Shown one piece after another: positions 25,412 through 59,616 of a stretch of 64,000 bases of DNA. The DNA is from Ruminiclostridium josui JCM 17888 (GTDB lineage: Bacteria > Bacillota > Clostridia > Acetivibrionales > DSM-1351), in contig NZ_JAGE01000001.1 in the NCBI RefSeq assembly GCF_000526495.1, positions 558,001 to 622,000 of the forward strand, given 5' to 3'. The position numbers were made by a program, and so were the translations under genes. The first letter of the stretch is position 1. Every line of letters starts with the position of its first letter. The notes beneath the pieces were generated by a model that worked only from the letters and a program-made list of their open reading frames with translations, had not been told where the DNA came from and ran no database searches.

Positions 25412-27226
25412 CTATACCTGTATATATTGACCTGCCTGTACACGCCACATCTCAGCATACTTGCCGTTTAGCTGGAGCAGTTCATCGTGGCTTCCTTCTT
25501 CAATAATTCTCCCATTTTCAAGCATAAATATTTTGTCTGCCAGTCTTGTAGTAGAAAGTCTGTGAGAGATAAACACCACTGTTTTATTTGCAGCAGCCTC
25601 CAACATTGATTGGTTAAGCTGATATTCAGCAATAGGATCAAGTGCAGAAGATGGTTCATCCAGTATTATCAGACTGGAATCTTTGTAAAAAGCTCTGGAT
25701 ATTGCAATTTTTTGTGCTTCTCCACCGGACAGATTCACTCCATCTTCCTCAAATTCTGCCGTAAGGGGAGTATCAAGGCCCAGCTTAAATTTTTGAAGCC
25801 GCTGTGCAAATCCGCTTTGTTCCAGTGCTGTCATTACAGGGGTCTCCGGTATTCCATGCGCATTATCCATCAATACATTTTCCTTGACTGTAGCAGCATA
25901 AATCATATAGTCCTGAAAGACCGTTCCCACATAGTCGTGGTACCTAGTAACGTCATATTCTTTAATATTAATGCCGTCCAATGAAATTGTACCTTCCTGT
26001 ACGTCGTATAAACGCATAAGCAGCTTGATTAAAGTAGTTTTTCCTGCACCATTGTAGCCCACAAGTGCTATTTTTTCATAGGGTTTAATTGTCATATTTA
26101 TATTATTTATTATTCTTTTTTCTCCCTCTTTGTATGCAAATGATACATTATTAATATTAAATGTTTTTGGCGACTTAGGTACATCAAGCTTTTTATGACT
26201 TACAATTTTAGGCTCATAATCTAAGAAGTTTCTGATTTTATCAATGTATAGGCTTGTTTCACTGGCATAAGGATAAATTTCAGTTATAGTCCTTAAGCTT
26301 TGTTTCAGGTTGTTGAAGGAGTTAAATAAAATCACAACACTACTGTAAGAAATTGTATGTAAAACTGTAGCCTTATATACCAGATAAGTTATGTAAAGTA
26401 CATCGCTTATAAAATCATTGGATACATAGTCTCTAAAAAAACTTATAACAAATTTCTTTTTTGCATTTTTTTTGTCAATATTGTAGATAGTCTTATTTGC
26501 TTCTTTAAACTTATCAAGAAGTTTCCCTGACACATCCGGATTCAGCCTTAGTTCCTTAGCATAATCATTAAGGTAGAATACACGATTAACGTAAGCTCTT
26601 TTTCGTTCCTCAGGATTTTTTTGCAAACGTATTTTAAAATTTATTTTGTTGAAAATCTGCATAAGCATAAAGGACAAAATAAAGGAAGTCAGAACAAATA
26701 TTACGGAAAACCAGTCTTTTATAAGAAAATATGTTCCTACAGTAGCAAAAACAGTAAGACCTGTAAATATCTTGTTTAGAAATTCCATCAGTCTGTCTAC
26801 TTGATTATCTGCTTCAGAAACTGCCAAAACAAACTCATTATAGTACTCGGGATTATCGTAACATTCCAAATCAAGCTCCTGTGCCTTTTCATAAAGCATA
26901 AACTTGAATTTTTGCTTCATCTTTGGCAATGCCTTTTTTGATATAAGCTGATTTACAAAAGCACCATATACCATACCCAAAGCTATTAATATAAATAGTA
27001 TTGCTATAAATACAGCTACCTTATAAAAGGGCCGTCCAAATTCCACTGATTCAAGTACATAACCGATACCATAAGTATGCTCAAGGAAAATTAAAATCTG
27101 ATTTCTTAATATGTCCAATATAAATGCAAGAATATATAATGGTGAAGCTGAAAAACAGATCTTTAATATAAATAAATTATTATCCCATACCTGTTTAAAG
27201 GGCTGTTTCTTTTTTACATCACTCAT
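25412..27226 (-). CDS. ABC exporter half-transporter (membrane domain fused to ATPase), second of a pair
   Basis: 604 residues. Six membrane segments in about 25-310 (for example AVFIAILFILIALGMVYGAF), then an ABC domain with Walker A GYNGAGKTT, signature NLSGGEAQK, Walker B SLIILDEPSSALDP and switch His in VFISHRLSTTRL. It overlaps the upstream half-transporter (ATGA), so a heterodimer is likely. No C39 peptidase domain is present. This type exports peptides or lipids. The IS3 element sits 9 bases beyond its stop and may have displaced a terminator. Substrate unknown. Confidence 0.9.
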   Translation of the reverse strand: MSDVKKKQPFKQVWDNNLFILKICFSASPLYILAFILDILRNQILIFLEHTYGIGYVLESVEFGRPFYKVAVFIAILFILIALGMVYGAFVNQLISKKALPKMKQKFKFMLYEKAQELDLECYDNPEYYNEFVLAVSEADNQVDRLMEFLNKIFTGLTVFATVGTYFLIKDWFSVIFVLTSFILSFMLMQIFNKINFKIRLQKNPEERKRAYVNRVFYLNDYAKELRLNPDVSGKLLDKFKEANKTIYNIDKKNAKKKFVISFFRDYVSNDFISDVLYITYLVYKATVLHTISYSSVVILFNSFNNLKQSLRTITEIYPYASETSLYIDKIRNFLDYEPKIVSHKKLDVPKSPKTFNINNVSFAYKEGEKRIINNINMTIKPYEKIALVGYNGAGKTTLIKLLMRLYDVQEGTISLDGINIKEYDVTRYHDYVGTVFQDYMIYAATVKENVLMDNAHGIPETPVMTALEQSGFAQRLQKFKLGLDTPLTAEFEEDGVNLSGGEAQKIAISRAFYKDSSLIILDEPSSALDPIAEYQLNQSMLEAAANKTVVFISHRLSTTRLADKIFMLENGRIIEEGSHDELLQLNGKYAEMWRVQAGQYIQV

Positions 27227-29058
27227 AGTGCAACCCCTCCTTCTATTTTATCCACTGCCAGATAGTTCATAGCCTGTTTTGTATACATATCCGCATAGGA
27301 GCCGTTCAGTTTCATTAATTCTTCATGAGTACCTTGCTCAATAAGCTCTCCGTGTTCAAACATAAATACTCTGTCAGCATTTCGTACTGATGAAAGACGG
27401 TGGGAGATAAAAATCATGGTTTTGTCCTTACTCTCACGCATTATGCTTTTATATAAATCATATTCGGCAATTGGGTCAAGGGCTGATGAAGGTTCGTCAA
27501 AAACCTTAATTGGAGTATTTTGAACAAAGGCTCTTGCAACTACTATTTTCTGATACTGTCCACCTGAAAGCACCGCCCCGTCCTCGTCAAATTCTTTGGT
27601 TAAAATGGTATTTATTCCTTTTGGCAGAGTCTCAACCTTTTCATAGACACCGGCTTTCTTTAAAGCTTCTATAACGGCTTCTTCCTCATTTTCAACTTTA
27701 TACCCCATCAAAACATTATCTTTTACAGAGAGAGCAAACACCTTGTAGTCCTGAAAGGCGGCGGCAAACAATTGCCTGTAAGCCCTAAGATTATATTCTT
27801 TTATGTTTCTGCCGTTTACAAGAATTTCGCCGGAGGTAGGATCATATAGGCGGAACAATAGTTTGATGATAGTTGATTTCCCTGCTCCATTATGTCCTAC
27901 AACAGCTACGACACTATTTCCCGATATACAGAAGTTCAGATTTTTCAATGCATATTTACCTTTTTTGTAAGCAAAACTGACATTTCGGAATTCAATAGAT
28001 GAAATAACAGGCTCAGGTATATCTCCATCCCAGTCTTCGGGAATAACTTCTTTGTATTCAATAAAAGTACGAAGGTTATTGACAAACATTCCGTTCTTCA
28101 TAGCCTCCACTATATTATTAAATAACCCGATTAAGATCCATGTGGCTGCCACCATTGTACTTGAAAGCACAGCAAGTTCTGAAAGAGAAACACTCTTTTC
28201 AACAATTGCCCTGTAAGCACCATACAGAAGAACACCCTCAAAGATTATAGAAAAAGTAAATACAACTTTCAATACTTCCATTATTATTGATTTAGCCCCA
28301 TATTTCTCTGCTATACTGATAGTCTTTTTTATAGCTTCATTGTATTTTTCCTTTATCAGACTATAAACTTTAGATAGTCGCATTTCCTTGGCATATTCAG
28401 CAAGGTACATAACCCTGTTTACATACTGAAAAACTCTTTCACTGGGTATACCCTCCTCGTACCTTTTCATCTCCAGTTTGTTCAAAATACCGCCAAAAAT
28501 AAAATTACCTATTATTGGAAAAATTACAAATAACACAGCTAACTTGTCTATATCATACATAGAAATAAATACCACAATAGTTGCAATTGAGCCCGTTAGT
28601 ATTCCCCACACATTTTTTACAACCGTAGCTATTTTGTCACCTGCACTGTCAAGTGCCATAGTGTATTTGTTATAAAATTCTGCATCTTCAAAACAGTTAA
28701 GTTCAACATTTCTAGCTTTTTGATACAGTTTCAGATACAGTCCTTCGTACATTTTAGTACTGTTCAGGGGAAATGCAACGTTATTTACATAGCTCCTGTA
28801 TAGGCCAATTAATGCAAATGTAACCCCGCAAAATAGTATAAATACCAATATACTGTTAAAACCCATTTTCTTTTCAAATGCATTAATTATGTATCTCATA
28901 AAAATTGTACTGAAAAACACCCATTCAAAACATCCTAAAATATTCATCATCAATGCATGGATTACATAGCTTTTAGTAATAGTCCATGCAACTTTTAGCG
29001 CAAAGATGTTATTCTTTATTGAAGTTAAATTAGATACTTCTTTCGGTTTCTTTTCCAA
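27223..29058 (-). CDS. ABC exporter half-transporter, first of a pair
   Basis: 611 residues. Membrane domain about 20-325 (FNSILVFILFCGVTFALIGL), ATPase domain with Walker A GHNGAGKST, signature VLSGGQYQK, Walker B FDEPSSALDP (degenerate just before the Asp: IKVF) and ISHRLSSVRNAD. Similar in plan to its downstream partner, with which it shares a 4-base overlap, so the two arose by duplication and likely act as a heterodimer. Neighbouring genes give no clear cargo; the convergent BtrH-like gene hints at a small peptide or modified metabolite. Confidence 0.9.
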   Translation of the reverse strand: MEKKPKEVSNLTSIKNNIFALKVAWTITKSYVIHALMMNILGCFEWVFFSTIFMRYIINAFEKKMGFNSILVFILFCGVTFALIGLYRSYVNNVAFPLNSTKMYEGLYLKLYQKARNVELNCFEDAEFYNKYTMALDSAGDKIATVVKNVWGILTGSIATIVVFISMYDIDKLAVLFVIFPIIGNFIFGGILNKLEMKRYEEGIPSERVFQYVNRVMYLAEYAKEMRLSKVYSLIKEKYNEAIKKTISIAEKYGAKSIIMEVLKVVFTFSIIFEGVLLYGAYRAIVEKSVSLSELAVLSSTMVAATWILIGLFNNIVEAMKNGMFVNNLRTFIEYKEVIPEDWDGDIPEPVISSIEFRNVSFAYKKGKYALKNLNFCISGNSVVAVVGHNGAGKSTIIKLLFRLYDPTSGEILVNGRNIKEYNLRAYRQLFAAAFQDYKVFALSVKDNVLMGYKVENEEEAVIEALKKAGVYEKVETLPKGINTILTKEFDEDGAVLSGGQYQKIVVARAFVQNTPIKVFDEPSSALDPIAEYDLYKSIMRESKDKTMIFISHRLSSVRNADRVFMFEHGELIEQGTHEELMKLNGSYADMYTKQAMNYLAVDKIEGGVAL

Positions 29059-29396: not shown

Positions 29397-31883
29397 TTAA
29401 TTTATAGTAGTTATAGGTCCGCCTAACAGCGCTTTTCTGAACAAAGCCAAATCAATAGCATCTATTGTATTATCATAATTAAAATCTACAGTCTTCATGG
29501 CTTCCTGTGATAAGCTTATCTTTCCCAGCAGATATGACTTGAGGATAGCATAGTCAAGAGAATTTATCTCTCCGTCACCATTTGCATCACCTAAAAGAAA
29601 ATCGGCTGTCTGAGGCTTTACAATAACAACATAGTTAACTATACTTGCTGAGGCACCGTTTGTACCAAGGGTTACAAGAGAATTCTCTTTATAATCTTTT
29701 TTATAGATATTGTATGCAACAGAATTATTATCGCTTACTATGGTCTCCCCCGTTACAGTCCAACTGCTTAACCATGCTGGAATATTTGTAGCCCTTGTAT
29801 CCAATCCCACATAAACAGAAATATCGGATTTTGCTATAAAGGATGCTTCATCGGTGGCATATATTTTTGAATCACATGCCGTCCTTATCCATTCGGAACC
29901 TGTAAGTTCCTGTGGAACCTGTGTAAACTTATATGTTCTGTCACCATATACCAAGTCGCCCACCTGTAAATTTGATTGAATTGACCAGTCAACAGAATTT
30001 TCATTATCATTTACTGTTAAAGCCTTTATTAGTTTACCATCAATTGTAATAGGATTTCCTCCTGCCAGATATATAGAAGGCTTGGGAGGTGTTGCCATAC
30101 CGCTTCCCAGGAAGAAACTGGTGTGTGGGGGCTGGTTGTACGCTACATTCTGCCAGGCTACTCCCAGTCTGTATACAGGATCGTGCATTAAGGTATAAAT
30201 ACGTCTGCTTGTCAAATCTGTGGTAGTATAGATATTTAAATATTTGCTATCAGATGTTCTCCATATAGCTTCTTCCCGCCAATCGCCCAGAATATCCGCC
30301 TGTAGGCAGGGAGTAGATTTTGTGCCGTTATTGGACTCACAGCCTACTGCTGAAAGCAATGGTCCTCCACCATATTTAGTTATGCTTGTACCGTCTAAAA
30401 GCTCACGAAGTTCATCGCCGTCCCACCATATTGCAAAATTCGTCTGTCCAGGTGCAGAACCGATATTTTGTCCTGTACAGCTAAATAATGGTGAACCTGA
30501 TGCCCATACCTCCTCACCTGGATATTGTGCGGTCAAGTCTGCTGAACATGCTCTTCCTACATCTTTGGATGCCTGAAACTTAAAAATCACACTTCCTGTC
30601 TTAGCATCTCGAAAAGATGCACCAACCCCTCCATTTCCGGCAGAGTCCTCATGACAGGACCATACCTCAAGACCTGGCCTGTTTGGATTAAGGTCACCCA
30701 GATGCATTGAATCCCCATGCTTCAAATTTGTATTATAAAGTCCTTTTCCTGAATCATCAATGGTACATGAACCATAGACAATCTCGTCCTTTCCATCATC
30801 ATCCACATCTGCTACACTAAGGTTGTGGTTGCCTTGTCCGGCATAACCGGAATTGCCACTGCTATTACTGTCAAATGTCCAACGTTTGGTTAATTTTGTG
30901 CCATTCCAGTCGTAAGCAACTAACACTGTCCGTGTATAATATCCTCGGCACATAACAAGACTTGGGTGCACCCCATCCAAGTACGCAATACACGCCAGAA
31001 AACGGTCAACTCGATTACCATATGAATCTCCCCAACTGGAAACAGTACCTCTGGCTGGTTCATAGTTTTCTGTGTATAGAGCCTTACCAGTATTTCCATC
31101 AAATATGGTCAAGTACTCAGGACCTGTAAGTACGTACCCCGATGAATTACGATAGTCTGCACCGGCATTTCCGATTACATTCCCGACACCGTCTTTGGTA
31201 CCGTCTGATGTTTTACATGCCATTTCAGCTTTGCCGTCTCCATTGAGATCGTATACCATGAATTGTGTATAATGGGCACCTGCACGGATATTTTTTCCCA
31301 AATCAATTCTCCATAGACGTTTACCGTTCAGTTTATATGCATCAATGTATACATTTCCTGTATATCCACTTTGAGAGTTATCCTTTGCATTTGACGGATC
31401 CCATTTTAAAACAATTTCATATTGACCGTCGCCATCCAAATCCCCAACGCTGCAATCGTTTGCACTATATGTATAGGCCACTCCGTCAGGTGTAGTTCCT
31501 CCATTGGGAATCTGGAGAGGAATCTGCAGGTAGTTACGGCCCCATACACTTACTGATGGTGAAATTGCCTGTTCGTTGCCATTTATTACAGCACTTACAG
31601 AGTACTTAGAATTTGCAGTCCCTGACTTGTCAATATAGTTGCTTGCCCCTGATATGTTAGCCACCTTTACCGAATCTCTGTAAAGATTATAGGTTACATC
31701 AGATGATTCAGTTCCTAATATACGCCAACTTATAAAAACACCATCGTTAACTTTAACCGCGACCACACCTCTATCCAAATTTTCCATTTGGCGTGCTGTT
31801 GCAGCAGATACTGTTTGTTGAAAACTACAACAAGTTAGTAGCATTACACTAATTAAGAAGCCCAAAAACACCTTTCTTAACAC
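29397..31883 (-). CDS. Cellulosomal PL11 rhamnogalacturonan lyase, PL11-X-dockerin
   Basis: About 828 residues. Signal peptide (VFLGFLISVMLLTCCSF...VSA), then a PL11 propeller (about 30-615) with MENLDRGVVAVKVNDGVFI, repeated Ca-binding DxDGDG-like motifs (GDLDGDGQYEIVLKWD, YDLNGDGKAEMACKT) and ADILGDWREEAIWR near the end. A module of about 135 residues shared with the two upstream pectinases follows, then a dockerin (INSLDYAILKSYLLGK and IDAIDLALFRKALLGG). It cuts the rhamnogalacturonan I backbone by beta-elimination. I start at the GTG 31883, which has AAGGAGGGG six bases upstream. Last gene of the pectin cassette. Confidence 0.92.
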   Translation of the reverse strand: MLRKVFLGFLISVMLLTCCSFQQTVSAATARQMENLDRGVVAVKVNDGVFISWRILGTESSDVTYNLYRDSVKVANISGASNYIDKSGTANSKYSVSAVINGNEQAISPSVSVWGRNYLQIPLQIPNGGTTPDGVAYTYSANDCSVGDLDGDGQYEIVLKWDPSNAKDNSQSGYTGNVYIDAYKLNGKRLWRIDLGKNIRAGAHYTQFMVYDLNGDGKAEMACKTSDGTKDGVGNVIGNAGADYRNSSGYVLTGPEYLTIFDGNTGKALYTENYEPARGTVSSWGDSYGNRVDRFLACIAYLDGVHPSLVMCRGYYTRTVLVAYDWNGTKLTKRWTFDSNSSGNSGYAGQGNHNLSVADVDDDGKDEIVYGSCTIDDSGKGLYNTNLKHGDSMHLGDLNPNRPGLEVWSCHEDSAGNGGVGASFRDAKTGSVIFKFQASKDVGRACSADLTAQYPGEEVWASGSPLFSCTGQNIGSAPGQTNFAIWWDGDELRELLDGTSITKYGGGPLLSAVGCESNNGTKSTPCLQADILGDWREEAIWRTSDSKYLNIYTTTDLTSRRIYTLMHDPVYRLGVAWQNVAYNQPPHTSFFLGSGMATPPKPSIYLAGGNPITIDGKLIKALTVNDNENSVDWSIQSNLQVGDLVYGDRTYKFTQVPQELTGSEWIRTACDSKIYATDEASFIAKSDISVYVGLDTRATNIPAWLSSWTVTGETIVSDNNSVAYNIYKKDYKENSLVTLGTNGASASIVNYVVIVKPQTADFLLGDANGDGEINSLDYAILKSYLLGKISLSQEAMKTVDFNYDNTIDAIDLALFRKALLGGPITTIN

Positions 31884-31905
31884 ATTTAACCCCTCCTTAT
31901 TTATT

Positions 31906-33570
31906 TTAATTACCACTTAATAAATAGCTTTTTAGCAGCGCATAATCCAAAGCATTTACATTTCCGTCATTATTCATATCTGCTGCTGTTATATTTATAC
32001 CGTCAGATATCCCAGTCAATATGTACTTCCTCAGTAATGCAAAATCCAAGGCACTTACTGTTCCATCCTCATTTAAATCACCTGGAAGAACTTCAGCTGT
32101 CTTTGACTTTACAATAACAACATAGTTTACAGTACTTGAGGATGCTCCGTTAAATCCCAGTGTAACAAGGGAGTTTGCTGCAAAATCCTTTTTGTATAGA
32201 TTGTAAGCAACCCCATTATTATCGCTCACCAAGGTCTCCCCCGTTGGAGTCCAACTGTTTAGCCAATTAAGAGAACTTGTCACTCTGGTATCCAAGCCAA
32301 TATAAACCGTTATATCTGATTTTGCTATAAAGGAAGCTTCATCCGCCGAATATGTTTTGGAGTCACAGGCCGTCCTTATCCATTCGGAACCAGTAAGCTT
32401 CTGTGGAATTTGTGTAAATTTATATGCCCTGTCACCGTATATTATGTCTCCTACCTGCAAATTTGACTGTACAGACCAATCTGCAGCATTTATAACATCG
32501 TTTACAACCAGCGACTTTATGTATTGTCCATCGGGAATAGGTACAGGAATATTTTCGTTGACATTAGGATTCCAACCATCTGAGCCTGAAAGGAATTTCT
32601 CCACTGTATACTCCGCTGCCCTTGAGGAAGGTAGCTGCTTTCTGGATACATTTGCACCTGCACCTGTATTCTGATACTCCCACATTTCATAGTTTGCAGG
32701 ATTGTTTCCTGACATGACTGTCCATCCAGCATCAGCAATATGTGAGCCTAATTCGCATTCCCGGAATAATACCTTAGGGGTGGTCTGAACAGTGTCAGAA
32801 CTGGGAATCCAAGGTCTTCCCAGATAAAAAGATTTAGGACTTGAATTGCTTGTCAGCTTACACTTGTATATAAGATATCCCTTTTGATTTGCCTTGGTAC
32901 TAGGAGCCGTAATGCATCCTCCGCTTCTGCTGATTGAAAAAATTTCACAGCTGTCAAATACTGCATTTGCTGAGCCAAATATAAAATCTACATCTCCCTC
33001 AATATAACAATTGTAATAATACTGCCTGCGCGAATCTCCGTTTGCATACAAAGTGTCCTGATTACCTTTGAATGAACAGTTTTTGAATATCATCTTGTCT
33101 GCTTTAGCAAGGACAGCCACTGCCTGACTTCTGCCGTTAGCAACCTCATCATATGAATTTTCAAAAGTTATGTTCTCAGCCTGGAACCCGTCGCCTGCAA
33201 TGGTAACACTGGCACTTCCCGTGGTACCCAATGTTCCCCCTGATGAATTTGGGGTGCTTGCTGCATCATTGTAGGTTAGAATCGTGCCTGCTTTACTTTG
33301 TCCAATCAAAGAAATATTAATTTTAGATGAAGAAATATTTATTTTTTCTTTATATGTGCCGTTTTTAATGTATATGGTTGTTCTGGTTGCTTTATTAGAC
33401 GGTACACTGTTAATTGCTGCCTGTACGGTAGTATAATTACCGCTTCCATCCTTTGCTACAACAATATCATAGGACACCGCTTCTACTTTATACGTTAAAA
33501 GTGAGCCAACCATCGTTTGGAGCACAAAGATAAAAATTAAAGCTAACTTAGAAAACATTTTTCTTCCCAT
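31906..33570 (-). CDS. Cellulosomal CE8 pectin methylesterase, CE8-X-dockerin
   Basis: 554 residues. Signal peptide to about 32. The CE8 beta-helix at 33-335 has the acid/base Asp172 in GNQDTLYANG, nucleophile Asp195 in GDVDFIFGSA and the substrate Arg in YLGRPW. The shared X module is at about 347-485 and the dockerin at 490-554 (VSALDFALLRKYILTG, VNALDYALLKSYLLSG). It demethylates homogalacturonan so that the PL10 lyase encoded 21 bases upstream can cut it. The ATG has GGAGG seven bases upstream. Several cysteines (NCSFKGN, NCYIEG, SCEIF, GGCITA) make it more Cys-rich than the xylanases. Confidence 0.95.
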   Translation of the reverse strand: MGRKMFSKLALIFIFVLQTMVGSLLTYKVEAVSYDIVVAKDGSGNYTTVQAAINSVPSNKATRTTIYIKNGTYKEKINISSSKINISLIGQSKAGTILTYNDAASTPNSSGGTLGTTGSASVTIAGDGFQAENITFENSYDEVANGRSQAVAVLAKADKMIFKNCSFKGNQDTLYANGDSRRQYYYNCYIEGDVDFIFGSANAVFDSCEIFSISRSGGCITAPSTKANQKGYLIYKCKLTSNSSPKSFYLGRPWIPSSDTVQTTPKVLFRECELGSHIADAGWTVMSGNNPANYEMWEYQNTGAGANVSRKQLPSSRAAEYTVEKFLSGSDGWNPNVNENIPVPIPDGQYIKSLVVNDVINAADWSVQSNLQVGDIIYGDRAYKFTQIPQKLTGSEWIRTACDSKTYSADEASFIAKSDITVYIGLDTRVTSSLNWLNSWTPTGETLVSDNNGVAYNLYKKDFAANSLVTLGFNGASSSTVNYVVIVKSKTAEVLPGDLNEDGTVSALDFALLRKYILTGISDGINITAADMNNDGNVNALDYALLKSYLLSGN

Positions 33571-33591
33571 ATGACTTCCTCCAATCCCATA

Positions 33592-35259
33592 CTATTTACT
33601 AATTCCTAATATATAGCCTTTAATAAGTGCCAGATCAATTGCATTTATAGAATTATCATTATTCATATCTGCTGCCTGTAAATCCATTCCGTCAGTTACT
33701 CCATTAAGTAAGTATTTCTTTACAAGTGCAAAATCCAAAGCATCTACTGCTCCATCTCTGTTTACGTCCCCATTTATAATTGTGGATTTAGGTTTTACAA
33801 TCACTGTGTAATTAACTACACTGGAGGACGCCCCGTTAGTCCCAAGTATCACACTAGAGCCAGCAGTAAAATCCTTTTTGTAAATATTGTACGTCAGGGC
33901 ATTATCTGAGTTTAAGGATTCGCCGGTTTTAGTCCAGTTTCCAAGCCAAGCTGGTATGTTGGTAACCCTTGTATCCAAGGCTACATAAACTGTTATATCT
34001 GATTTAGCAGTAAAGGAGGCTTCATCTGAGGCATATAGTTTTGAATCACATGCTGTTCTTATCCACTCAGAACCTATAAGGCTTTGTGGAATTTGAACAA
34101 ATTTGAATGTTCTGTCTCCGTATATTGAATCTCCCACCTGTAAATTAGATTGAATAGACCAATCCACAGCATTATCCCCATCATTTACAACCAGAGTTTT
34201 GATATTTTGACCATCGGGAATAGGTGTTGGGATAACAACTTCTTTAACAAGGTTTTTGGGCCAATCGCCATACCAAGCATATCCGTATCTTCTTTCCTGA
34301 CTTATTTCTGACAATTTATAATGTAGGGAACCGTCACGATCAACAAATATTGCTCTATTAGTACCCATTTCATAAAAACGTGCCCATATAGGTGGTGCTT
34401 GAGGATCACTGACAACTATTTTGTCATCTCCCGTGTCAACTACCTTAATTCCCAGTATTTTAACTTGTGCAAACCAGTTAATTGCTGAATTAATTGCGTT
34501 TGTTATCTCTGAACTGGGGTTGCTAATTCCTTTTAAGTAATTCACTATACCTACACTCTCACTGGTGCAAATGGATGGCAATTCATAAGCTCTTCCACTG
34601 GCAGGCTTCAGAGTCACTTCGTCGTGCTGCTGGCACCATGCGGTTTTTACACCGTTTACTATTATTTGTGTATTTAAAATACATTGGATACCTTTTTGAA
34701 CAGCACTACTTGCTCTTGAGGCTCTGGTAGAATCTATAAAAGTATAATCCCCTGCCTTTTTTGATACATCGGTTAATAAATTCATAACATGAATCATAGC
34801 ATTATCATTATAGGTAATGTGTGCATGATAAGTTCCTGCATCGTTGAATACCTGAGGCCATCCACCGTTTGAATATTGTCCGTTCAATAAAAGGTCTATA
34901 CCCTTTTGGCAAGCAGTCAGATATTTTGTGTTTTTAGTCTGATTATAAGTTTTTGCTAAAACTTTTATCTGAGAAGTGGTTGTATCATTATCTATTGTAG
35001 ATTTGCCCCATGACCCGCTGGTACTTGTTGTCATATCCTTTCTCCAACCTCCATCTGGAAGCTGGTACTGAACTATACTGTCTGCCAGTGCAATTCCTTG
35101 GGAACTGCCAAACCATGAGTCTGAATTTTTAAATACGCTCTTCCAATCCGGGGTTGAAGCAAATGCGTGTTTGGGAAACAATAAAGCGAAAGAAAAAAGC
35201 GAAACCAGAATTGTTATGTACAATGCCTTTGGAATTTTGATTCTTATACTTTTTTGCAT
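33592..35259 (-). CDS. Cellulosomal PL10 pectate lyase, PL10-X-dockerin
   Basis: 555 residues. Signal peptide to about 34 (cut after HAFA). The PL10 alpha/alpha fold at about 36-335 shows YQLPDGGWRKDM, NGGWPQVFND, TAWCQQHDEVTLKPASGRAY and the active-site region PPIWARFYEMGTNRAIF with conserved arginines. X module about 350-485, dockerin 490-555 (VDALDFALVKKYLLNG, INAIDLALIKGYILG). It cleaves polygalacturonate by calcium-dependent beta-elimination. Its RBS AAGGAGG overlaps the stop of the small unknown gene upstream, which ties this cassette to the redox-protein genes. Confidence 0.95.
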   Translation of the reverse strand: MQKSIRIKIPKALYITILVSLFSFALLFPKHAFASTPDWKSVFKNSDSWFGSSQGIALADSIVQYQLPDGGWRKDMTTSTSGSWGKSTIDNDTTTSQIKVLAKTYNQTKNTKYLTACQKGIDLLLNGQYSNGGWPQVFNDAGTYHAHITYNDNAMIHVMNLLTDVSKKAGDYTFIDSTRASRASSAVQKGIQCILNTQIIVNGVKTAWCQQHDEVTLKPASGRAYELPSICTSESVGIVNYLKGISNPSSEITNAINSAINWFAQVKILGIKVVDTGDDKIVVSDPQAPPIWARFYEMGTNRAIFVDRDGSLHYKLSEISQERRYGYAWYGDWPKNLVKEVVIPTPIPDGQNIKTLVVNDGDNAVDWSIQSNLQVGDSIYGDRTFKFVQIPQSLIGSEWIRTACDSKLYASDEASFTAKSDITVYVALDTRVTNIPAWLGNWTKTGESLNSDNALTYNIYKKDFTAGSSVILGTNGASSSVVNYTVIVKPKSTIINGDVNRDGAVDALDFALVKKYLLNGVTDGMDLQAADMNNDNSINAIDLALIKGYILGISK

Positions 35260-35273
35260 TTTCTAATACCTCC

Positions 35274-35579
35274 TTAAGAATCCAGTTGAACTTTTACCAC
35301 ATCATTATTTATATTTAAAAGTGCTCTAATATTTTTGGGTATCTCCTCCAATTCAATTTGGCCCTTGCCGTCAGGAAGCACTTCGTTGAAATATTCGTTT
35401 ATCTCCAGCATGAGCTTTTTCATTACATATGTTCTGTGAATAATACATGGCTCACGGTCATTAAATAATTCGATACTCTTTTTAATGATTATTTCTTCTT
35501 TGAAAGGCAACGAATTCAATTTATATTCATTATTTGTACAGCCCTTTTTATCAATAAAAATTATTCTTTTTGGTTGCAT
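35274..35579 (-). CDS. Small protein of unknown function in the redox-pectinase operon
   Basis: 101 residues, cytosolic by appearance (no signal peptide or membrane helix). Begins MQPKRIIFIDKKGC and contains two cysteines (Cys14 and one in DREPCIIHRTYVMKKL), and ends in an acidic, hydrophobic tail. I do not recognise the family. It follows the DsbD-like gene by 21 bases and its TAA is part of the Shine-Dalgarno region of the PL10 gene, so it is almost certainly co-transcribed with both. A regulator or partner of the redox proteins is possible. Confidence 0.75.
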   Translation of the reverse strand: MQPKRIIFIDKKGCTNNEYKLNSLPFKEEIIIKKSIELFNDREPCIIHRTYVMKKLMLEINEYFNEVLPDGKGQIELEEIPKNIRALLNINNDVVKVQLDS

Positions 35580-35600
35580 GGTCCTACACCTCCAATTTAG

Positions 35601-36737
35601 CTAAAAAAGCAAAAGAATTATTATAACGAATAAAGCTAAAATTAGTGCATTTATTAACTTTATAATATGAAGCCGTTCCCTTATTGCCTCTGAAACCTCA
35701 AAAATTTCTTTTCCCTTGTATACCAGAAATAACAATATAATAAGCGGTAGAATGACCCCCGAATTATACAGAACAAGAGAAATCAATGCTTGAAGGCTTA
35801 ACTGGGAATTTGTCTGAAAAATTGTAATAATAGTAGCAAGATAGATTTGCCCTGTACACAGAAACTCCCCTAAAGATATAACTATTCCCATCAGGAAACC
35901 TAATAACAATATAATTTTCAGGTTTGCAAAGCCCGATACTTTTTTTATTACCCCATGGTTAAACCTTCTAAGTACTTCAGGCAGCTGCAGACGTATTTTG
36001 TCATATCTTTCGGCTTTGGCTGCAAAATAATCCTGTATACTCATAACAATCAAAATTAACAGCACAACTGTGAAAATTATCTTAAACACTGTATTAAACA
36101 AACTGAAATCAAAGATTGATAAAAACCGGAATAAAATGGTTCCCAGCAGCACATACGCAAGAAATTTACCTGAAATAAAAGATAATCCAATTTTAAGTAC
36201 TTTCTCTTTTTTCACAGTTAAAAGGGATAGAAAAAATAGCAGCATAGACAATGAACATGGATTTAAGCCATTAATAATACCTGCCAGTAATACGCTTGGA
36301 GTGGTAAAGCCTTTAAACCTCCTGATATCTTTTTCATGGGTTTCTTGCAAATCATTAATCTCAATTGTTTTGACTCCTGGAGTATTTAACACCTTTTCAA
36401 GATTAGTTTTAATAAGCTCTTCATCTGTATAATATTTGTCCCTGATAAATACAACGGGAACAATTCCCTCATCCTCTGGTAAAACATTATATGCTTCATC
36501 ATACTTGTCCAGCAGACTTTTGTATCTCAAATCAGATATATCATACTTTCTTAAGTCTATAGTATTATGCTTTTCACTAAAATTTTCAAGGAAGTCAGAC
36601 ATACTCCTGCAAGATGCACATGTAGGGCTATAAAAGTATACTAACTTGACTTTAGTTTCATCTTCTGCCCAAGAGCTGAAAACACTTCCATGTAACATCA
36701 ATAACAAAGCTATAAGGAAAATCGGAAACTTTTTCAT
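35601..36737 (-). CDS. Thioredoxin-like domain fused to DsbD/CcdA-type membrane protein
   Basis: 378 residues. Signal-like N-terminus (FLIALLLMLHGSVFSSWA), then an extracytoplasmic thioredoxin-like domain at about 25-125 with a CxxC in FYSPTCASCRSM. The rest has about six to seven membrane helices with paired cysteines in GLNPCSLSMLLFF and GEFLCTGQIYLA, the pattern of DsbD-beta/CcdA electron carriers. It probably moves reducing equivalents from the cytosol to thiols outside the membrane. It is 22 bases from the thioredoxin-like lipoprotein gene and upstream of the pectinases. Confidence 0.85.
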   Translation of the reverse strand: MKKFPIFLIALLLMLHGSVFSSWAEDETKVKLVYFYSPTCASCRSMSDFLENFSEKHNTIDLRKYDISDLRYKSLLDKYDEAYNVLPEDEGIVPVVFIRDKYYTDEELIKTNLEKVLNTPGVKTIEINDLQETHEKDIRRFKGFTTPSVLLAGIINGLNPCSLSMLLFFLSLLTVKKEKVLKIGLSFISGKFLAYVLLGTILFRFLSIFDFSLFNTVFKIIFTVVLLILIVMSIQDYFAAKAERYDKIRLQLPEVLRRFNHGVIKKVSGFANLKIILLLGFLMGIVISLGEFLCTGQIYLATIITIFQTNSQLSLQALISLVLYNSGVILPLIILLFLVYKGKEIFEVSEAIRERLHIIKLINALILALFVIIILLLF

Positions 36738-36759
36738 TGTATACTCCTCATTTGCGGAT

Positions 36760-37650
36760 TTATAACCCCAATATGTACTTAACTACCTCATTGGCATCTG
36801 TAAAAAACTTTTCAACAGAATATTCTTTGTTAATTATTAAAAACATTGGGTATTTTCGGTCTGAAGCCTGAATGTCCTGTTCCTGACAAAATATATTGAA
36901 ATATATCTGTTGAGGGTCAATCTCAAAATTCTTATCATAAGATTGTCTTGTATCAAAATCCGAACGTACAGTTATTAAATTTATTTTTTTACTCATGGAA
37001 TCCATATTTTTACTTATGATATCTTCACTGACTCTACATGATTTACATCCTGATGACATAAACATTAGAAGTGTCTTTTCGTTGCTGTTACCTGAAAAGT
37101 CTCCTGACTTGGATACATTATTTACAATCATTTTTCCTGCTTTTGCACTTAAATCTGTTTTTCCGTTTAAATTAATTATTTCATTTATTAAGGATATGTA
37201 GCTGTAGCCCGTTACCATTGCAATTTTGCTGTTTTCATCCACAAGAAAAGCATTCGGCTTTGATTCACTCAGTATGACCTTGCTTTTTAGGGAATAATTA
37301 TAGTCTTCATCAATTCCTGCTTTTTTTATCTCTTCTACAGGTATTTTGTCTTCCCAAACTATTAAATAACTAACATCTTTGCAACTGAGAAGATTAATTG
37401 TTTTTGAAATGCAGTCAAGCCTCTTCATACAATCTTCATTTGTACTGTCAAGGTAGAATATAACTTTATATTTGCTTTTTACATCGCTTATATTATGTGA
37501 TTCACCGGAAACACGGATTAGTTTTGCCTTTGAGGGAATTACATCCCCGGACAAAAGCTCTAAATTTTTACGGCGGTCCGAGCAGGAGGCTGTTAAAATT
37601 ACTATGAGAACAACTATAGCAAGCGCCGCAGGAATAACATATTTTTTCAC
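36760..37650 (-). CDS. Membrane-anchored tandem thioredoxin-like protein
   Basis: 296 residues. Hydrophobic N-terminus VIPAALAIVVLIVILTASC followed by SDRR, which could be a lipobox (Cys at about 23). Two thioredoxin-like halves are suggested: about 35-165 (no CxxC; DSTNEDCMKRLDC) and 185-296 with an active-site-type CxxC in MFMSSGCKSCRVSED. It would act outside the membrane as a thiol oxidoreductase partner of the DsbD-like protein. First gene of the string that runs into PL10, CE8 and PL11. A 118-base gap with a stem-loop separates it from GH30. Confidence 0.8.
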   Translation of the reverse strand: MKKYVIPAALAIVVLIVILTASCSDRRKNLELLSGDVIPSKAKLIRVSGESHNISDVKSKYKVIFYLDSTNEDCMKRLDCISKTINLLSCKDVSYLIVWEDKIPVEEIKKAGIDEDYNYSLKSKVILSESKPNAFLVDENSKIAMVTGYSYISLINEIINLNGKTDLSAKAGKMIVNNVSKSGDFSGNSNEKTLLMFMSSGCKSCRVSEDIISKNMDSMSKKINLITVRSDFDTRQSYDKNFEIDPQQIYFNIFCQEQDIQASDRKYPMFLIINKEYSVEKFFTDANEVVKYILGL

Positions 37651-37688: not shown

Positions 37689-37738
37689 ATTCCAGTCAGT
37701 CAATGCTCCTTTGTTAAGCTAATTTAACTGACTGGAAT
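37689..37738 (-). terminator. Stem-loop at the end of the xyl-doc cluster
   Basis: A perfect 12-bp inverted repeat (ATTCCAGTCAGT 37689-37700; ACTGACTGGAAT 37727-37738) with a 26-base loop, 31 bases after the GH30 stop. There is no U-tract on the minus strand, so it may trim or stabilise the 3' end rather than stop RNA polymerase, and read-through into the redox-pectinase genes is possible. Confidence 0.55.
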
Positions 37739-37768: not shown

Positions 37769-39667
37769 TTATGCTGCTCCCTGTGTAGGTAAAACAGTTA
37801 TTAATCCCAGTAAATATTGCTTGAGCAGTGAGAAATCAATAGCATTTATATCACCATTTGCGTCCAAATCAGCCAATTTAGTATTTTCTATTGTTTCTAA
37901 CCCTAAAATGTATTTTTTTAATAATAATAAATCTATTGCATCTATTTGACCGTCATTATTTATGTCACCCGTTTTTCCTGTTACAACAGGTGCATTAATG
38001 AATTTGAACCAGTTAATATTGAACAGATATCCGCTGTCTCCTGTAAAAGTAAGATATAAATCATGTTTACCACTTACTCCGCTGACATTGCAACTTACAT
38101 CTACCCAATTCTGCCAACCTCCTGTGCCTGGAACCGGACAGGTACCTACTAAAGTACCGGTAGGGCTGTCAAGTCTGATTTCTATGTTTCCTCCGTTGGT
38201 AGCACTTGATACTCTTGCTTTAAAGCTTTGGGCACCTTCTCCGAAATTAACATTCTTGTAAACTGCATAATCACCGTTTTCTATATATCCGAGACATTCG
38301 CCTCCTTCATTACAGCTTCCATTCTGGGTACCTGACTGGTCATCATAGCCTTCTCCTTCTATTTGTGAAAAAGCATCTTTTTCTACAGGAGTTATGGTTC
38401 CAAGATCTGCTACAAAGGTTATAACACTTTGAGCTGGAAGCTGAGCTGTAAAGGATGTCCCAGTGTATGAGGTTGACGCTGCAACATTTCTGCTGCCATC
38501 AGTTATCCATGAAGATATTTTAGATACTGATGTTGCACCCTGCAGATTAAACTTCTGACTTACTGCGGAAGTACCTTTGTTAATGGCAACAATTACAGCC
38601 TTGCCATCGCCTTTATATGCTGATATATATACATTTGTATTTGGATTCTTAGTTGCATCAACTCTTTTGTATCCTGGACGAACAAATTTGGAGTACTGAG
38701 CCATCATGGCACCACGTTTACTCATGGTTCCGTCTTCTTTCATAGGACCATATGACCTACGTATGTACCACCATACATATGCCTGAAAATTACCTTCAAC
38801 TATACCATTATGCATGTTATATGCAACCTCTAATGCTTCTGGGAAACGATCTGCTGAGTCAGCATTACTATTTGGAACATATACTTCTGTCATCCACAGC
38901 TCTTTTCCCGCTCCTTTCTGTTGAAAAAGAGGATAAGACATATTACTAACGCTGGTACCATAGAAATGGGCACCCAGAATATCCATATTTGCAAGTGCTG
39001 TTGGATCGTTCAATATAGGGTCTGACATATTCTTTAAGTATTGGAAAGATTCAGGAGCTATTACTTTTGCCTCGGTAATTGAGCCAGCGTAATTTTTCAT
39101 AAAGTTGAGCATTTCCTGTGGTGTCCACCATGTCCATGTCTCAGCATAATCAGGCTCATTTTGAACAGATATTGCGTAAAGTGGAGCTCCGTTATCCTTC
39201 ATGTATTTTGCATAATTGTTCAGATGCTGTGCATATGCACCATACTGGTCATATCTCAAACGAGTCTGATTAGCAACTCCATTACGTGTGAATTTTTCCT
39301 GCATAGATGCAGGAGGGTTCCAAGGAGAAGCAAAAACTATTCCACCATGTGCTATGGCACTTTTAGCAGTTGCTAATCCCTTGGACCAGTTACTGCTGTT
39401 TTCGTCAACGTGGAGCCTTAAAATAGTAAATCCAAGCTGTCCATTTCCGTTACCAAAGGCTGTTTCTCTTTGAGCTGCAGTTAAATCAGACTGCCAACCG
39501 GTGTGAACCATTCCGCCAAAACCGCGCATTTCCTGCCTCTCTGCTGACAGATTAACAGTTACATCACTTGCGGCTGAAACCTCTGTTACCGGTACTGTTA
39601 TTACCAGTGAAAAAACAATTAAACAAATCAAAAGTACACTTAGTATTTTTTTCATGTTTGTTACCAT
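37769..39667 (-). CDS. Cellulosomal GH30 (subfamily 8-like) xylanase, GH30-CBM6-dockerin
   Basis: 632 residues. Signal peptide to about 32. GH30 domain with acid/base Glu171 in ISVQNEPDY and nucleophile Glu261 in LWMTEVYVPN, plus the segment AYVWWYIRRSYGPM, which is close to bacterial glucuronoxylanases of GH30_8; side beta-domain to about 425. CBM6 about 435-560, dockerin 567-632 ([32 protein letters not shown]). It would cut glucuronoxylan or xylan. The M1 ATG has GGAGGAG six bases upstream. Last gene of the xyl-doc cluster. Confidence 0.93.
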   Translation of the reverse strand: MVTNMKKILSVLLICLIVFSLVITVPVTEVSAASDVTVNLSAERQEMRGFGGMVHTGWQSDLTAAQRETAFGNGNGQLGFTILRLHVDENSSNWSKGLATAKSAIAHGGIVFASPWNPPASMQEKFTRNGVANQTRLRYDQYGAYAQHLNNYAKYMKDNGAPLYAISVQNEPDYAETWTWWTPQEMLNFMKNYAGSITEAKVIAPESFQYLKNMSDPILNDPTALANMDILGAHFYGTSVSNMSYPLFQQKGAGKELWMTEVYVPNSNADSADRFPEALEVAYNMHNGIVEGNFQAYVWWYIRRSYGPMKEDGTMSKRGAMMAQYSKFVRPGYKRVDATKNPNTNVYISAYKGDGKAVIVAINKGTSAVSQKFNLQGATSVSKISSWITDGSRNVAASTSYTGTSFTAQLPAQSVITFVADLGTITPVEKDAFSQIEGEGYDDQSGTQNGSCNEGGECLGYIENGDYAVYKNVNFGEGAQSFKARVSSATNGGNIEIRLDSPTGTLVGTCPVPGTGGWQNWVDVSCNVSGVSGKHDLYLTFTGDSGYLFNINWFKFINAPVVTGKTGDINNDGQIDAIDLLLLKKYILGLETIENTKLADLDANGDINAIDFSLLKQYLLGLITVLPTQGAA

Positions 39668-39691
39668 ACTATTCTCCTCCTAAAAAATTTT

Positions 39692-41161
<1,470 letters not shown>

Positions 41162-41173
41162 TTAATTTTTTTG

Positions 41174-44100
41174 TTATTGTTCTAAGAGGTATTTCTTCAG
41201 CAGTGAATAATCAATTGCATTAACCTCTCCATTTCCATCCAAATCAGCCAATTCCATATTTTCTGTTGTATCTAATCCCAATAGATATTTTTTAAGTAAT
41301 AGTAAATCTATTGCATCTATTTGTCCGTCGTTATTTATGTCTCCGGGTTTCCCAGTTACAATAGGCGCATTGCTGAATTTGAACCAGTTAATGTTAAACA
41401 GATATCCGCTGCCCCCGATAAATTTCAGGTATAAATCATGTTTGCCACTTGCTCCGCTGACATTGCAAGTTACATCAGACCAGGTCTGCCAATCACCTGT
41501 TCCTTGAACGGGACAAGTTCCTACCAGGGGACCGTCAATACTGTCAAGTCTGATTTCAATATTTCCCCCGCTAGTAGCGCTTGCTACTCGTGCCTGAAAG
41601 CTTTGGGCACCTTCTCCGAAATCAATATTGCTATAAACAGTAAAGTCTTCATTTTCAATAAATCCAACATCCAGTCCACCTTCACTGCAAGTTTCAGTTT
41701 GTACTCCGTATTGGCCGCTGAACTCTTCTGCTTCTATTTGTGAAAATGCAGATTTAGGAATATCAATACTTGGCTTGCCCCAGAGTTCAAGTTCATAAAT
41801 TCTGGCACCGCCGGAGTTATCCTGAGTGGCTGTATTAATATATAGGCGGACATATCTTGTACTAAAAGTCGGAACATTTCTATCTGTTATATTTTCTTGA
41901 TTCCCATAAACAGCATCAACATCAGACCAAGTAAACCCGTCATCACTTTTCTGAAGAGTAAAATCCCTGGTATTATATCTAATTGCTTCAGCGACGCCGG
42001 CATGTTTCACAACCCAACGGCTGATGTCATACTTTGCGCCAAGATCAACTTGCAGCCATTCACCGCTCATACCCTTATCATGACACCATTTGGAAGTAGC
42101 TGAACCATCTACAGCTTTTCCGCCCTCTTCACTGGGATTTGCACCTGAAGCAGTGGTAGTCTTATTCAAAGCTACATTTGTCAGGACTGTATTGGGTTCT
42201 ACCAATTGTAATGATTCATTCAACTGATAAGAGTATCCTTTCTTGGTGGGGAAACTTATGGTTTTGTTACCGTAACGTACGTTACATACATTCCCTGAAT
42301 TTGATTTAATAGTAGCACTCTTTAAAACACCATTTTCCCAATTCATATTTGTAACAGTGAAATTTCCACGGGCACAAAGGCCATTGGCATGTCCCGTTGA
42401 CCACTGGCTTGGCAAAGCCGGCAAAAGTTGAATTTCATTATTATGACTTTGTAAAAGCATTTCTGCTATTCCTGAAGTAAATCCGAAGTTTCCGTCTATC
42501 TGGAAAGGAGGATGTGCATCCCACAAGTTATCATAGAGTCGCCCGTTTTTATTAACAGGTGAAATAAGCAGTTTAACAAGATTGTATGCATGGGCTCCGT
42601 CCTCCAGCCTTGCCCAGCAATTTAACTTCCACGCTTCAGACCAGCCTGTCCCTTCATCTCCACGAGCATTTAAGGATTTAATTACTGCATTGGCAATAGA
42701 AGGTGTTTTCCGTTTGCTTATTTCAAATCCCGGGAATAAGTCGTAGGCAAAGGAAATATGGCGGTTTTTTTCTGTCTGGCTATCCCAGTCATAAGCCCAT
42801 TCTTGCAATTGTCCCCAACTTCCAATCGTATTAGGTTTAATCTGTGAAAACTTTGATTGGAGGGTGGAACGAAATGTAGAATCGACATTAAGTATCTTCG
42901 ATGCCTGAATTACATCCTTGAAAAGTTCCCGGCTGATTCCATTGTCCATTGTTACTCCATAGCTGTTGTATGCACCTTGTCCTCCACTGTTTCCCGGGAG
43001 TGTAACTTCAGGTGAAGTACTCGGACAGATAACCTGATAATTTTGTCCGTTAATACTTTTGGACTGCATTAGTGTTTGCAAAAAATCTGCTGCACCCCTT
43101 ATTACTGGATATATTTCATTTAAATATTCAGTATCCTGATTAAAGTTGTATGCATCATACAGCATGTTAGAAATCCAACCAGCACCTGTTGGCCAGAACC
43201 CCCATTCACCATCAATAGGAGCTGTTCTGTTCCATAAATCGGTGTTGTGGTGTAATACCCATCCGTTTGATATGTTGTAATGAACACGGGCAGTTTCATT
43301 GCCGGGAGCCTGAAGTTCTTTAGCCTTTTCAACGAATGGCTCAAAACACTCCGCTAGATTTGTAGTAAAGGCAGGCCAGTAATTCATTTCATAGTTTATA
43401 TTAGTGGTCATCTTACATCCCCATGCAGGATTACGGAATTTATTCCATATTCCCTGAAGATTCATTGGCTGTGAATCCCGGGAGGCACATATCATTAAAT
43501 ATCTTCCATATTGGAAAAGTACCTTTACCAGTTTCGGGTCATTTGTGCTGCTAAATTCAGATATACGTTGTCCCATAGGTTTACTGTTTTCGCTGTCACT
43601 GCCGCCTAAATCAACGTCCACCCGTTTGAACAAGTTCTGATAGTCTGCAACATGACTGTTATATAAGGTATCATATGATTTTGCCGAAGCCTTTGTAATA
43701 TCCGTAGTGGCTTTTCCTTTCTCATCTCCGTTACAAGTTTTGTAATCAACAAAATTTGTACGGATAGAGGTAAGAATAACTACTGAATCTGCATTTGTAA
43801 CTGATATTTGGTTGTTATTAGCAGAGACTGAACCATTTGTATTAATAATTTTGGAACGTGTTGAAAACCAAACCGCATATGGAATACCATTGTCAGAATC
43901 CCCGTGCCCATTCATTACTAAGGTGTCATTACCTGAGGTAGAAACGGTATACTGGCCGGTAAGTGAAGATTCATATTCAGCAGTGAGAGATATTGAGCCC
44001 GGCGAACTACAAGATATTTTTGTTACCATTACCTGGTCAGGATAGCTTACAAATGACTCTCTGTGATAATTTTTCCCATTATATGTATAATCACTTGAAA

Positions 44101-44650: not shown

Positions 44651-44742
44651 GAAGTCCCTCCTTTATAGCGATATGATTTTCATTTCCACAACACCTTATA
44701 GCCTTCTTTCTCCATATAAAATAACTCAGAATACAAAACACA

Positions 44743-44767
44743 GGCTGGTTATTAATGTATTCCAGCC
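44743..44767 (-). other. Small hairpin between GH62-CE6 and GH95 genes
   Basis: GGCTGG (44743-44748) pairs with CCAGCC (44762-44767) across a 13-base loop, within the largest gap inside the xyl-doc cluster. There is no T-tract. Short stem, so only modest support. Confidence 0.4.
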
Positions 44768-44862
44768 CATGCTTTATATTTTTAAGAATAAATTCAGGAG
44801 TTGTTATTAAATGTAATTTTCACTGTTTGAACTTGTCTCTATTAACAAAGGTTCCATGCTCT

Positions 44863-47193: not shown

Positions 47194-47252
47194 CTTTCTT
47201 CCTCACTTTCGAATTATTTTTTAGTTAAATTTATTTCATGCCTTTAAGGCAA

Positions 47253-50624: not shown

Positions 50625-50647
50625 TCTCCTAACTGGAAATCTCTTGA

Positions 50648-52462: not shown

Positions 52463-52503
52463 AATATTATCTCCCCCTTCAATTATGTAGTTTGTATAAA
52501 TCT

Positions 52504-52545
52504 AATCTACTACCTAATAAGCTGCAGCAAATCAGGTAGTAGATT
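52504..52545 (-). other. Intergenic stem-loop between GH43 and GH27 genes
   Basis: A perfect 12-bp stem (AATCTACTACCT 52504-52515; AGGTAGTAGATT 52534-52545) with an 18-base loop in a 114-base gap, 31 bases after the GH43 stop. No U-tract follows, so mRNA processing or 3' protection is likelier than termination. Confidence 0.75.
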
Positions 52546-52576
52546 TGCCCTATCAACACATTCGCACCTTAAGTTT

Positions 52577-54106: not shown

Positions 54107-54160
54107 AAAAACACCTCTTTTCTAATTTACTTCAATATATCTTCTATGTTTTTCCATTAA

Positions 54161-56407: not shown

Positions 56408-56432
56408 CTCATGTTTCCTCCTTTTTGTTGTT

Positions 56433-56473
56433 AAAAGTTAGCAGGTAAATTAAAAATTTACCTGCTAACTTTT
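56433..56473 (-). other. 19-bp perfect stem-loop between CE1 and GH43 genes
   Basis: Arms 56433-56451 and 56455-56473 pair over 19 bp without mismatch around a 3-base loop (core GTTAGCAGGTAAA), only 3 bases past the CE1 stop. After the 3' arm on the minus strand comes AACAAC, not a U-tract. This is the strongest hairpin inside the xyl-doc cluster. Confidence 0.85.
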
Positions 56474-56476
56474 AGA

Positions 56477-57946
<1,470 letters not shown>

Positions 57947-57980
57947 TTATTTAACTCCTTTCTTTTAACACGTAAAATCA

Positions 57981-59552: not shown

Positions 59553-59616
59553 TTAAATACCTCATTTTTAAATCACTTTTATGAAAGGTAGAATACTTTC
59601 CCTTCACAATTAATAA

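Follow-up and report, generated by a model that had tools for sequence, protein, structure and literature searches.

Which proteins might be served by a thiol-redox system encoded in the midst of cellulosomal enzyme genes? The question is raised by a stretch of 64,000 nt from Ruminiclostridium josui JCM 17888 (NZ_JAGE01000001.1 positions 558,001-622,000, forward strand; hereafter the window), in which a CcdA-type reductase set is embedded among genes for cellulosomal enzymes: a tandem thioredoxin-like protein, a thioredoxin-CcdA/DsbD fusion and a small protein with the motif PCxIH (together, the trio). A first-pass annotation of this DNA tied the trio to the three pectinase genes that follow it (PL10, CE8 and PL11). 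The best reading of its distribution is that the trio goes with hemicellulases, not with the adjoining pectinases, and we propose, with about an even chance of being right, that it is a thiol-reductant relay to the cell surface serving the xyl-doc hemicellulase regulon.

The trio among hemicellulase and pectinase genes

A search of 40 genomes including that of R. josui, with 20 stretches of up to 20 kb read, places the thioredoxin-CcdA gene in 17 genomes, the small gene in 15 and the tandem thioredoxin gene in 12; the three are intact and contiguous in eight (the window, G005, G006, G007, G009, G013, G027 and G036). Hemicellulase or dockerin genes adjoin all eight contiguous trios, and CBM6 genes lie within 8 kb of every one; the order reported by the first-pass annotation, with PL10-CE8-PL11 next to the trio, recurs in G005, G007 and G009, but is thereby confined to four of the eight. 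The trio of G006, like those of a second family (G013, G027 and G036), again lies amid hemicellulase and dockerin genes (GH27, GH30, GH10, GH115, GH141 and GH95), and in a third family (G035) the trio is split, with the tandem thioredoxin gene ~26 kb from the thioredoxin-CcdA/small pair and both near dockerin enzymes. The stretches read from G006, G013, G027, G036 and G035, each no longer than 20 kb, contain no homologue of the catalytic domains of the window PL10, CE8 and PL11, a comparison confined to these three pectinase families. The annotation had conceded that its link would fail if the trio occurred in most relatives with no pectinase nearby; this is half the case, applying to four of the eight intact contiguous trios and to the split trio of G035.

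Within the genus (11 genomes), a clustered CBM6 block is among the matches listed for seven, five with an intact trio and two (G001 and G002) with its remains; G003, G004, G008 and G010 have no CBM6 cluster among the matches listed and no tandem thioredoxin gene, G008 and G010 carrying only a distant pair and G003 and G004 no trio gene. At the position of the trio, G001 retains only a fragment of the tandem thioredoxin gene. In G002, an H10-like genome, an internal deletion of ~0.9 kb removes the CcdA membrane domain and about two-thirds of the small gene, and tandem thioredoxin, PL10 and CE8 remain; in G012 the tandem thioredoxin gene is interrupted by stops, and CcdA is represented by a short fragment that also contains a stop. 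A record of Ruminiclostridium papyrosolvens C7 likewise shows the trio; for another strain of that species, DSM 2782, PMC5815224 describes electrotransformation. The features of the window are as follows.

36760..37650, minus strand: putative tandem thioredoxin-like protein, 296 aa, with an N-terminal membrane anchor and CxxC in the second domain
35601..36737, minus strand: thioredoxin-CcdA/DsbD fusion, 378 aa (Pfam)
35274..35579, minus strand: small PCxIH protein, 101 aa (alignment, profile searches, AF2 model)
33592..35259, minus strand: neighbouring PL10 pectate lyase with dockerin (Pfam)
31906..33570, minus strand: neighbouring CE8 pectinesterase with dockerin (Pfam)
29397..31883, minus strand: neighbouring PL11 rhamnogalacturonan lyase with dockerin (Pfam; likely GTG start)
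37769..61242, minus strand: xyl-doc hemicellulase cluster, 11 enzymes, GH30 last (Pfam)
61954-63561: AraC-type response regulator, upstream of xyl-doc (Pfam)
37689..37738, minus strand: 15-bp stem-loop in the gap between GH30 and the trio
25412..29058, minus strand: two ABC-exporter genes, downstream (same neighbours in G002, G005, G007 and G009)

Just 3' of the exporters (24173-25317), two genes resemble by eye an IS3-type transposase pair.

The trio starts 118 bp 3' of the xyl-doc cluster, which the first-pass annotation had overlooked. From the trio side the cluster encodes GH30, an esterase, GH95, GH62 (with a second esterase domain), GH59, GH27, GH43, GH43, an esterase, GH43 and GH10; by Pfam each of the 11 enzymes carries CBM6 and dockerin. 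CBM6-dockerin hemicellulases in series and, upstream of them, an AraC-type response regulator identify the cluster as xyl-doc, the regulator being predicted to control it; the names CE1 and CE6 for the window esterases follow the available part of PMC3572039. The order is alike in the parts read of G002, G005, G007 and G009, with one esterase gene moved or missing, and an extra esterase gene lies between GH30 and the trio in G005 and G007. In Ruminiclostridium cellulolyticum, the available part of the same paper reports 118 bp between Ccel_1242 and Ccel_1243, with a predicted terminator, and weak read-through by reverse-transcription PCR from Ccel_1242 into the gene 118 bp on in straw-grown H10 (PMC3572039). 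Because the gap and the gene order are the same, Ccel_1243 would be the tandem thioredoxin gene.

The stem-loop in this gap of the window is found in all five genomes compared (window, G002, G005, G007 and G009), with folding z-scores of -3.6 to -5.0 and 97.3% of alignment cells able to pair; one pair is changed on both sides, which 109 of 500 shuffles equal, so that covariation shows no excess in this alignment. Since no T-run follows the stem-loop, a role in RNA processing or stabilization is likelier than termination. A promoter scan found 66 sites versus 69 in shuffles, no excess, and the promoter-like site 5' of the trio (37703-37676) is absent from the aligned relatives.

On the downstream side, the window sequence confirms what the first-pass annotation had described: the order, the strand, gaps of 22, 21, 14, 21 and 22 bases from tandem thioredoxin through thioredoxin-CcdA, the small gene, PL10 and CE8 to PL11, and the overlap of the PL10 ribosome-binding site with the stop of the small gene, TTAAGGAGG at the 3' end of the 101-aa gene being its stop plus the PL10 Shine-Dalgarno sequence. 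The likely start of PL11 is the GTG at 31883, where its orthologues begin with Met. Its recurrence in G005, G007 and G009 shows that the order trio-PL10-CE8-PL11 is no product of chance, and the small gene is 13-14 bp from PL10 in all four genomes. The annotation had said that a terminator between 35274 and 35259 would undo its proposal; a simple scan of the minus strand finds no terminator-like site there. This result and the conserved spacing suggest that the redox set is probably transcribed with PL10.

Components of the proposed relay

The 378-aa fusion matches the membrane domain family DsbD_2 (PF13386) with 39.1 bits (cut-off 24.9) and Thioredoxin with 24.9 bits (cut-off 23.5), so that its fused domain combines thioredoxin-fold membership with a CxxC motif. 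C40 and C43 of that motif, and C161 and C294, are invariant in the 16 aligned rows, from which the broken G002 copy is excluded. C161 (in NPC) and C294 (in FLCTGQ) are placed one in each of two membrane segments, and we take them to be the CcdA redox pair.

A tandem thioredoxin architecture is suggested for the 296-aa protein by three lines of evidence: Pfam thioredoxin matches below threshold (E 0.0016-0.074); a CxxC motif (C202/C205) present in 12 of 13 aligned rows, the exception being the G001 fragment; and the best Foldseek match of a weak model (mean pLDDT 51), to the protein disulfide oxidoreductase of P. furiosus (E 3.6e-7 over 256 columns), presumably itself a tandem thioredoxin fold. 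As the cysteine close to the anchor is not conserved in every orthologue, the protein is likelier held by a membrane helix than by a lipid.

The 101-aa protein apparently belongs to an undescribed family. All 51 aligned members share K, D, P, C, I and H without exception, partly by construction, the contig scan having used peptide patterns that hold part of PCxIH; the motif is likewise present in all 13 members found by profile and not by peptide pattern. By eye there is no signal peptide. The AF2 model (pLDDT 94.8, pTM 0.81) comprises two strands, two helices and further strands, with the cysteine starting the longer helix. The best match in a PDB fold search has E 0.2, none being convincing, and the best match of the profile to PDB sequences has E 1.1; the 51 members yield no credible match in Pfam or NCBIfam, with lone stray matches at E 0.006-0.007. 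Neither a described family nor a solved fold was thus found in Pfam, NCBIfam or PDB, with a viral fold library and predicted cellular structures outside the search. Its members come from Clostridia, Treponema and Mollicutes-like records, with a match in at least 17 of 391 genomes of the class (a lower bound, up to 12 candidates per genome having been scored) and in 17 of 58 genomes of the order.

The context of the small gene was compared across 69 loci: the window, L055, L057, L059, L060, L068, 53 loci from a genome-contig scan with the small protein and 10 of a further 13. Thirteen repeat stretches (L056, L058, L061-L066, L069, L070, L164, L166 and L170) are omitted, and four class-scan matches (G080, G113 and second copies in G093 and G249) stand outside the counts. 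Because of their relatedness the loci do not count as independent, and many lie on short contigs; neighbours were named after representatives by phmmer, the majority of these representatives being Pfam-checked, with a second CUT1 permease assigned by eye and a weak DUF3502 match alone for the CUT1 binding protein. Of the 69 loci, 64 have thioredoxin-CcdA within 8 kb of the small gene and 63 have it no more than 300 bp away; in these 63 the two genes share a strand 55 times and converge eight times, the eight all being Lachnospiraceae-type records (L086, L088, L090, L096, L097, L100, L107 and L108), where the small gene is placed as if separately controlled. Among the five loci with no thioredoxin-CcdA in the 8-kb range, L119 stops 2 bp past the small gene, and L085 and L109 have 1-5 kb on one side. 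The core of the system is the thioredoxin-CcdA fusion with the small PCxIH protein.

Of the 69 loci, 49 have labelled glycan genes within 8 kb: CUT1 permease in 25, GH95 in 22, AraC membrane regulator in 19, CBM6 in nine, GH29 in nine and FucU in four. For GH95, chance would place a gene at this distance in roughly 0.5-2% of loci, as estimated from the 1-4 GH95 matches per positive genome, compared with the 22 of 69 observed. Beside the redox genes of L071, L075, L160, L163 and L168 are subsets of a recurring sugar cassette (FGGY kinase, zinc alcohol dehydrogenase, GatZ/KbaZ-like aldolase, aldo/keto reductase and FucU), which could encode breakdown of L-galactose or L-fucose via a sugar alcohol. 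In L082 (1662-4292) the small gene lacks its end and continues in frame into a GH95 gene; this was set aside as local decay.

Candidate clients and rival explanations

From the anatomy, motifs, conservation and gene context described above we infer the direction of electron flow, the role of the small protein and shared regulation with xyl-doc. Cytosolic thiols would reduce the CcdA membrane domain, which would then reduce its own exported thioredoxin domain; this would pass electrons to the anchored tandem thioredoxin-like protein, which would keep the cysteines of secreted hemicellulose-degrading proteins reduced or properly paired. The 101-aa protein would probably be a cytosolic partner of CcdA, acting via the PCxIH cysteine at its helix start. 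The trio would be part of the xyl-doc regulon, and the pectinases downstream passengers in one species group.

The leading client, as a tentative and rather doubtful hypothesis, is a cellulosomal GH146/GH127 beta-L-arabinofuranosidase. The nucleophile of these enzymes is a zinc-bound cysteine. In the available parts of two papers their assays contain 1-10 mM dithiothreitol (DTT), with no test of the need for DTT in those parts (PMC10728902, PMC10850190). Each of nine genomes with trio genes, and also G002, encodes a GH127/146 protein (about 850-980 aa) whose end looks dockerin-like by eye in 10 of 10, fits a simple pattern in four of 10 and was checked by Pfam in one. The three zinc-type cysteine positions are kept in all 10 of these putatively catalytic dockerin-type proteins, the Glu being visible in two printed rows only. 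In G035, the GH127/146 gene is directly 5' of thioredoxin-CcdA and the best PDB match of its product is 8k7y, a beta1,3-L-arabinofuranosidase; in G002 and G007 the gene lies within the xyl-doc cluster. Across the 391 class genomes, GH127 occurs in 16 of 17 with the small family versus 150 of 374 without it, a comparison uncorrected for phylogeny.

Several observations weigh against the relay or this client. GH95, for which we know of no cysteine chemistry, serves as a control and is as strongly enriched in the same genomes (15/17 versus 122/374, likewise uncorrected for phylogeny); co-occurrence with GH127 is therefore not specific, goes no further than that of another glycosidase family among these genomes, and was rejected as proof of a client. 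GH127/146 lies within 8 kb in only three of the 69 loci, and in the window genome GH146 is ~1.7 Mb away from the trio. The relay of G002 is broken, yet this genome retains xyl-doc, GH146, PL10 and CE8; a distant pair that it also carries could take over the function. Nine Mollicutes/Bacilli-type loci combine the core pair with a cysteine desulfurase and have no labelled glycan gene within 8 kb, so that glycan enzymes are not the client everywhere. GH146 is accordingly a good guess for a first experiment, and nothing beyond that.

These nine loci speak for a rival explanation, sulfur trafficking by the core pair: a NifS-type desulfurase would hand persulfide or sulfur to the small protein, CcdA would move electrons or sulfur, and glycan loci would employ the pair for a purpose not yet seen. 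A NifS/IscS-like gene is adjacent in 11 of the 69 loci: nine, from Mollicutes, Acholeplasma, Izimaplasma and Bacilli records, have the order CcdA-small-NifS, overlapping or with gaps of up to 20 bp, as an apparent operon (L111, L117, L118, L120, L121 and L123-L126), and in the two others, from Butyrivibrio (L109 and L116), the desulfurase gene is divergent to the small gene. The desulfurase family is assigned by Pfam for two and by NCBIfam for six of the 11, the NifS model being the best match yet under its cut-off. The single invariant cysteine at a helix start in the small protein would suit such a role. We consider this explanation unlikely: 58 of the 69 loci have no desulfurase gene within 8 kb (some contigs being short), none is seen beside the trio, and the nine loci may reflect one inherited event. 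A speculative combination, which we think quite unlikely, would make the PCxIH protein a new class of small cytosolic thiol/persulfide carrier feeding CcdA-type reductases, in some cases from an adjacent NifS desulfurase, and recruited by cellulolytic clostridia so that a cellulosomal cysteine glycosidase stays active extracellularly.

The CBM6 modules offer another possible substrate for the relay, which might repair wrong disulfides in them; each of the 11 modules in the window cluster has three conserved cysteines, an odd number. The same three are found, however, in trio-less genomes (G003 1/1 and G008 1/1, the only two such modules read) and where the trio is broken (G002 3/4, G001 7/8), while one is missing from part of the modules in some trio genomes (G006 2/3, G035 4/11). 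We regard this explanation as very unlikely and the modules as unsupported clients, given that trio-less genomes share these cysteines in the two modules read.

The proposal of the first-pass annotation, that the trio maintains the proper state of the cysteines in the three pectinases while these are secreted, has become highly improbable. In its favour are the 14-bp spacing and ribosome-binding-site overlap with PL10, the 13-14 bp kept in four genomes, and the conservation of pectinase cysteines among orthologues (all those of window PL10 and CE8 in four orthologues including G002, those of PL11 in three). Half of the intact contiguous trios lack a neighbouring pectinase of these families, however, and in G002, where CcdA and the small gene are broken and PL11 is absent, PL10 and CE8 retain all cysteines of the window proteins. 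Nor are these two enzymes rich in cysteine, as had been claimed: PL10 has five in 555 aa (0.90 per 100) and CE8 seven in 554 (1.26 per 100), the 11 hemicellulases encoded upstream ranging from 0.36 to 2.36 per 100; PL11 has 13 in 839. On these three grounds the idea of pectinases as dedicated clients was rejected as the main reading. What stands of the proposed tie is the CcdA set among cellulosomal genes and its conserved spacing from PL10, and what lacks support is a special link. The domains of PL10, CE8 and PL11 score far above the Pfam cut-offs, with a dockerin in each; between catalytic domain and dockerin, all three (29397-35259) share a Pfam-less module with one conserved cysteine (RTACDSK), and they are without the CBM6 that the hemicellulases carry.

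We give very little credence to a redox sensor, in which the small protein and CcdA would inform membrane AraC-type regulators and sugar importers rather than mature enzymes: such a regulator is within 8 kb in 19 of the 69 loci and a CUT1 permease in 25, but neither label is within 8 kb in the eight contiguous trio loci (G013 and G036 do hold another AraC kind, with AAA and TPR, by Pfam in G013, ~4-6 kb from the small gene), and the xyl-doc response regulator of the window is ~24 kb away.

Significance and comparison with known systems

The trio is a real, conserved module, unstudied as far as literature searches show, in which a CcdA relay is joined by a third protein of an apparently undescribed family; its links are with hemicellulose and other glycan loci, not with pectinases. 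Among the matches listed by these searches, which covered few subscription journals, none connects such redox genes with xyl-doc or cellulosomal enzymes. To our knowledge there is no earlier case of a cell exporting reducing power for extracellular polysaccharide-degrading machinery; the thiol-reductant relay, if true, would be the first, with a candidate client that has a catalytic cysteine. The small-protein family, with its strict motif and no relative found, offers a starting point for work on an area of thiol electron transfer that is unstudied.

The stem-loop upstream of the trio resembles the loops of clostridial cellulosome operons, which take part in selective RNA processing and stabilization: it likewise lies 3' of the last hemicellulase gene, processing being predicted here, and nothing sets it apart from them. 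Five intergenic stem-loops are reported for xyl-doc in the available part of PMC4423207. The xyl-doc cluster of R. cellulolyticum (Ccel_1229-1242) is of the same kind as that of the window and has the same 118-bp gap to the following gene, which the accessible text of PMC3572039 mentions merely as a small hypothetical protein. In H10, according to the accessible part of PMC3656788, PL10-CE8 (Ccel_1245-1246) form a small two-gene cluster, and catabolite repression acts on most cellulosomal genes, xyl-doc excepted. The H10-like genome G002 differs from the window in that two of its three redox genes are broken; if G002 is H10, the broken copies would explain why xyl-doc studies there did not meet the relay.

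Cthe_1948 of Clostridium thermocellum is likewise a CcdA relative in a cellulosome producer, likened here by description and not by sequence. In the available part of PMC5327387 it is thought to carry reducing equivalents across the membrane and is reported with oxidative stress in planktonic cells, and no glycan genes are named beside it there.

In Bacillus, CcdA works with ResA and StoA. In streptococci it works with Etrx1/Etrx2 and MsrAB, according to the parts available of PMC3914529 and PMC7034828. Like these systems, the trio brings together genes for a CcdA membrane domain with two cysteines and for CxxC thioredoxin domains, putative in the tandem protein, on the outside. Unlike them, it has a thioredoxin fused to the N-terminus of CcdA, a tandem thioredoxin-like anchored partner and a small third protein, and it sits in glycan-degradation clusters.

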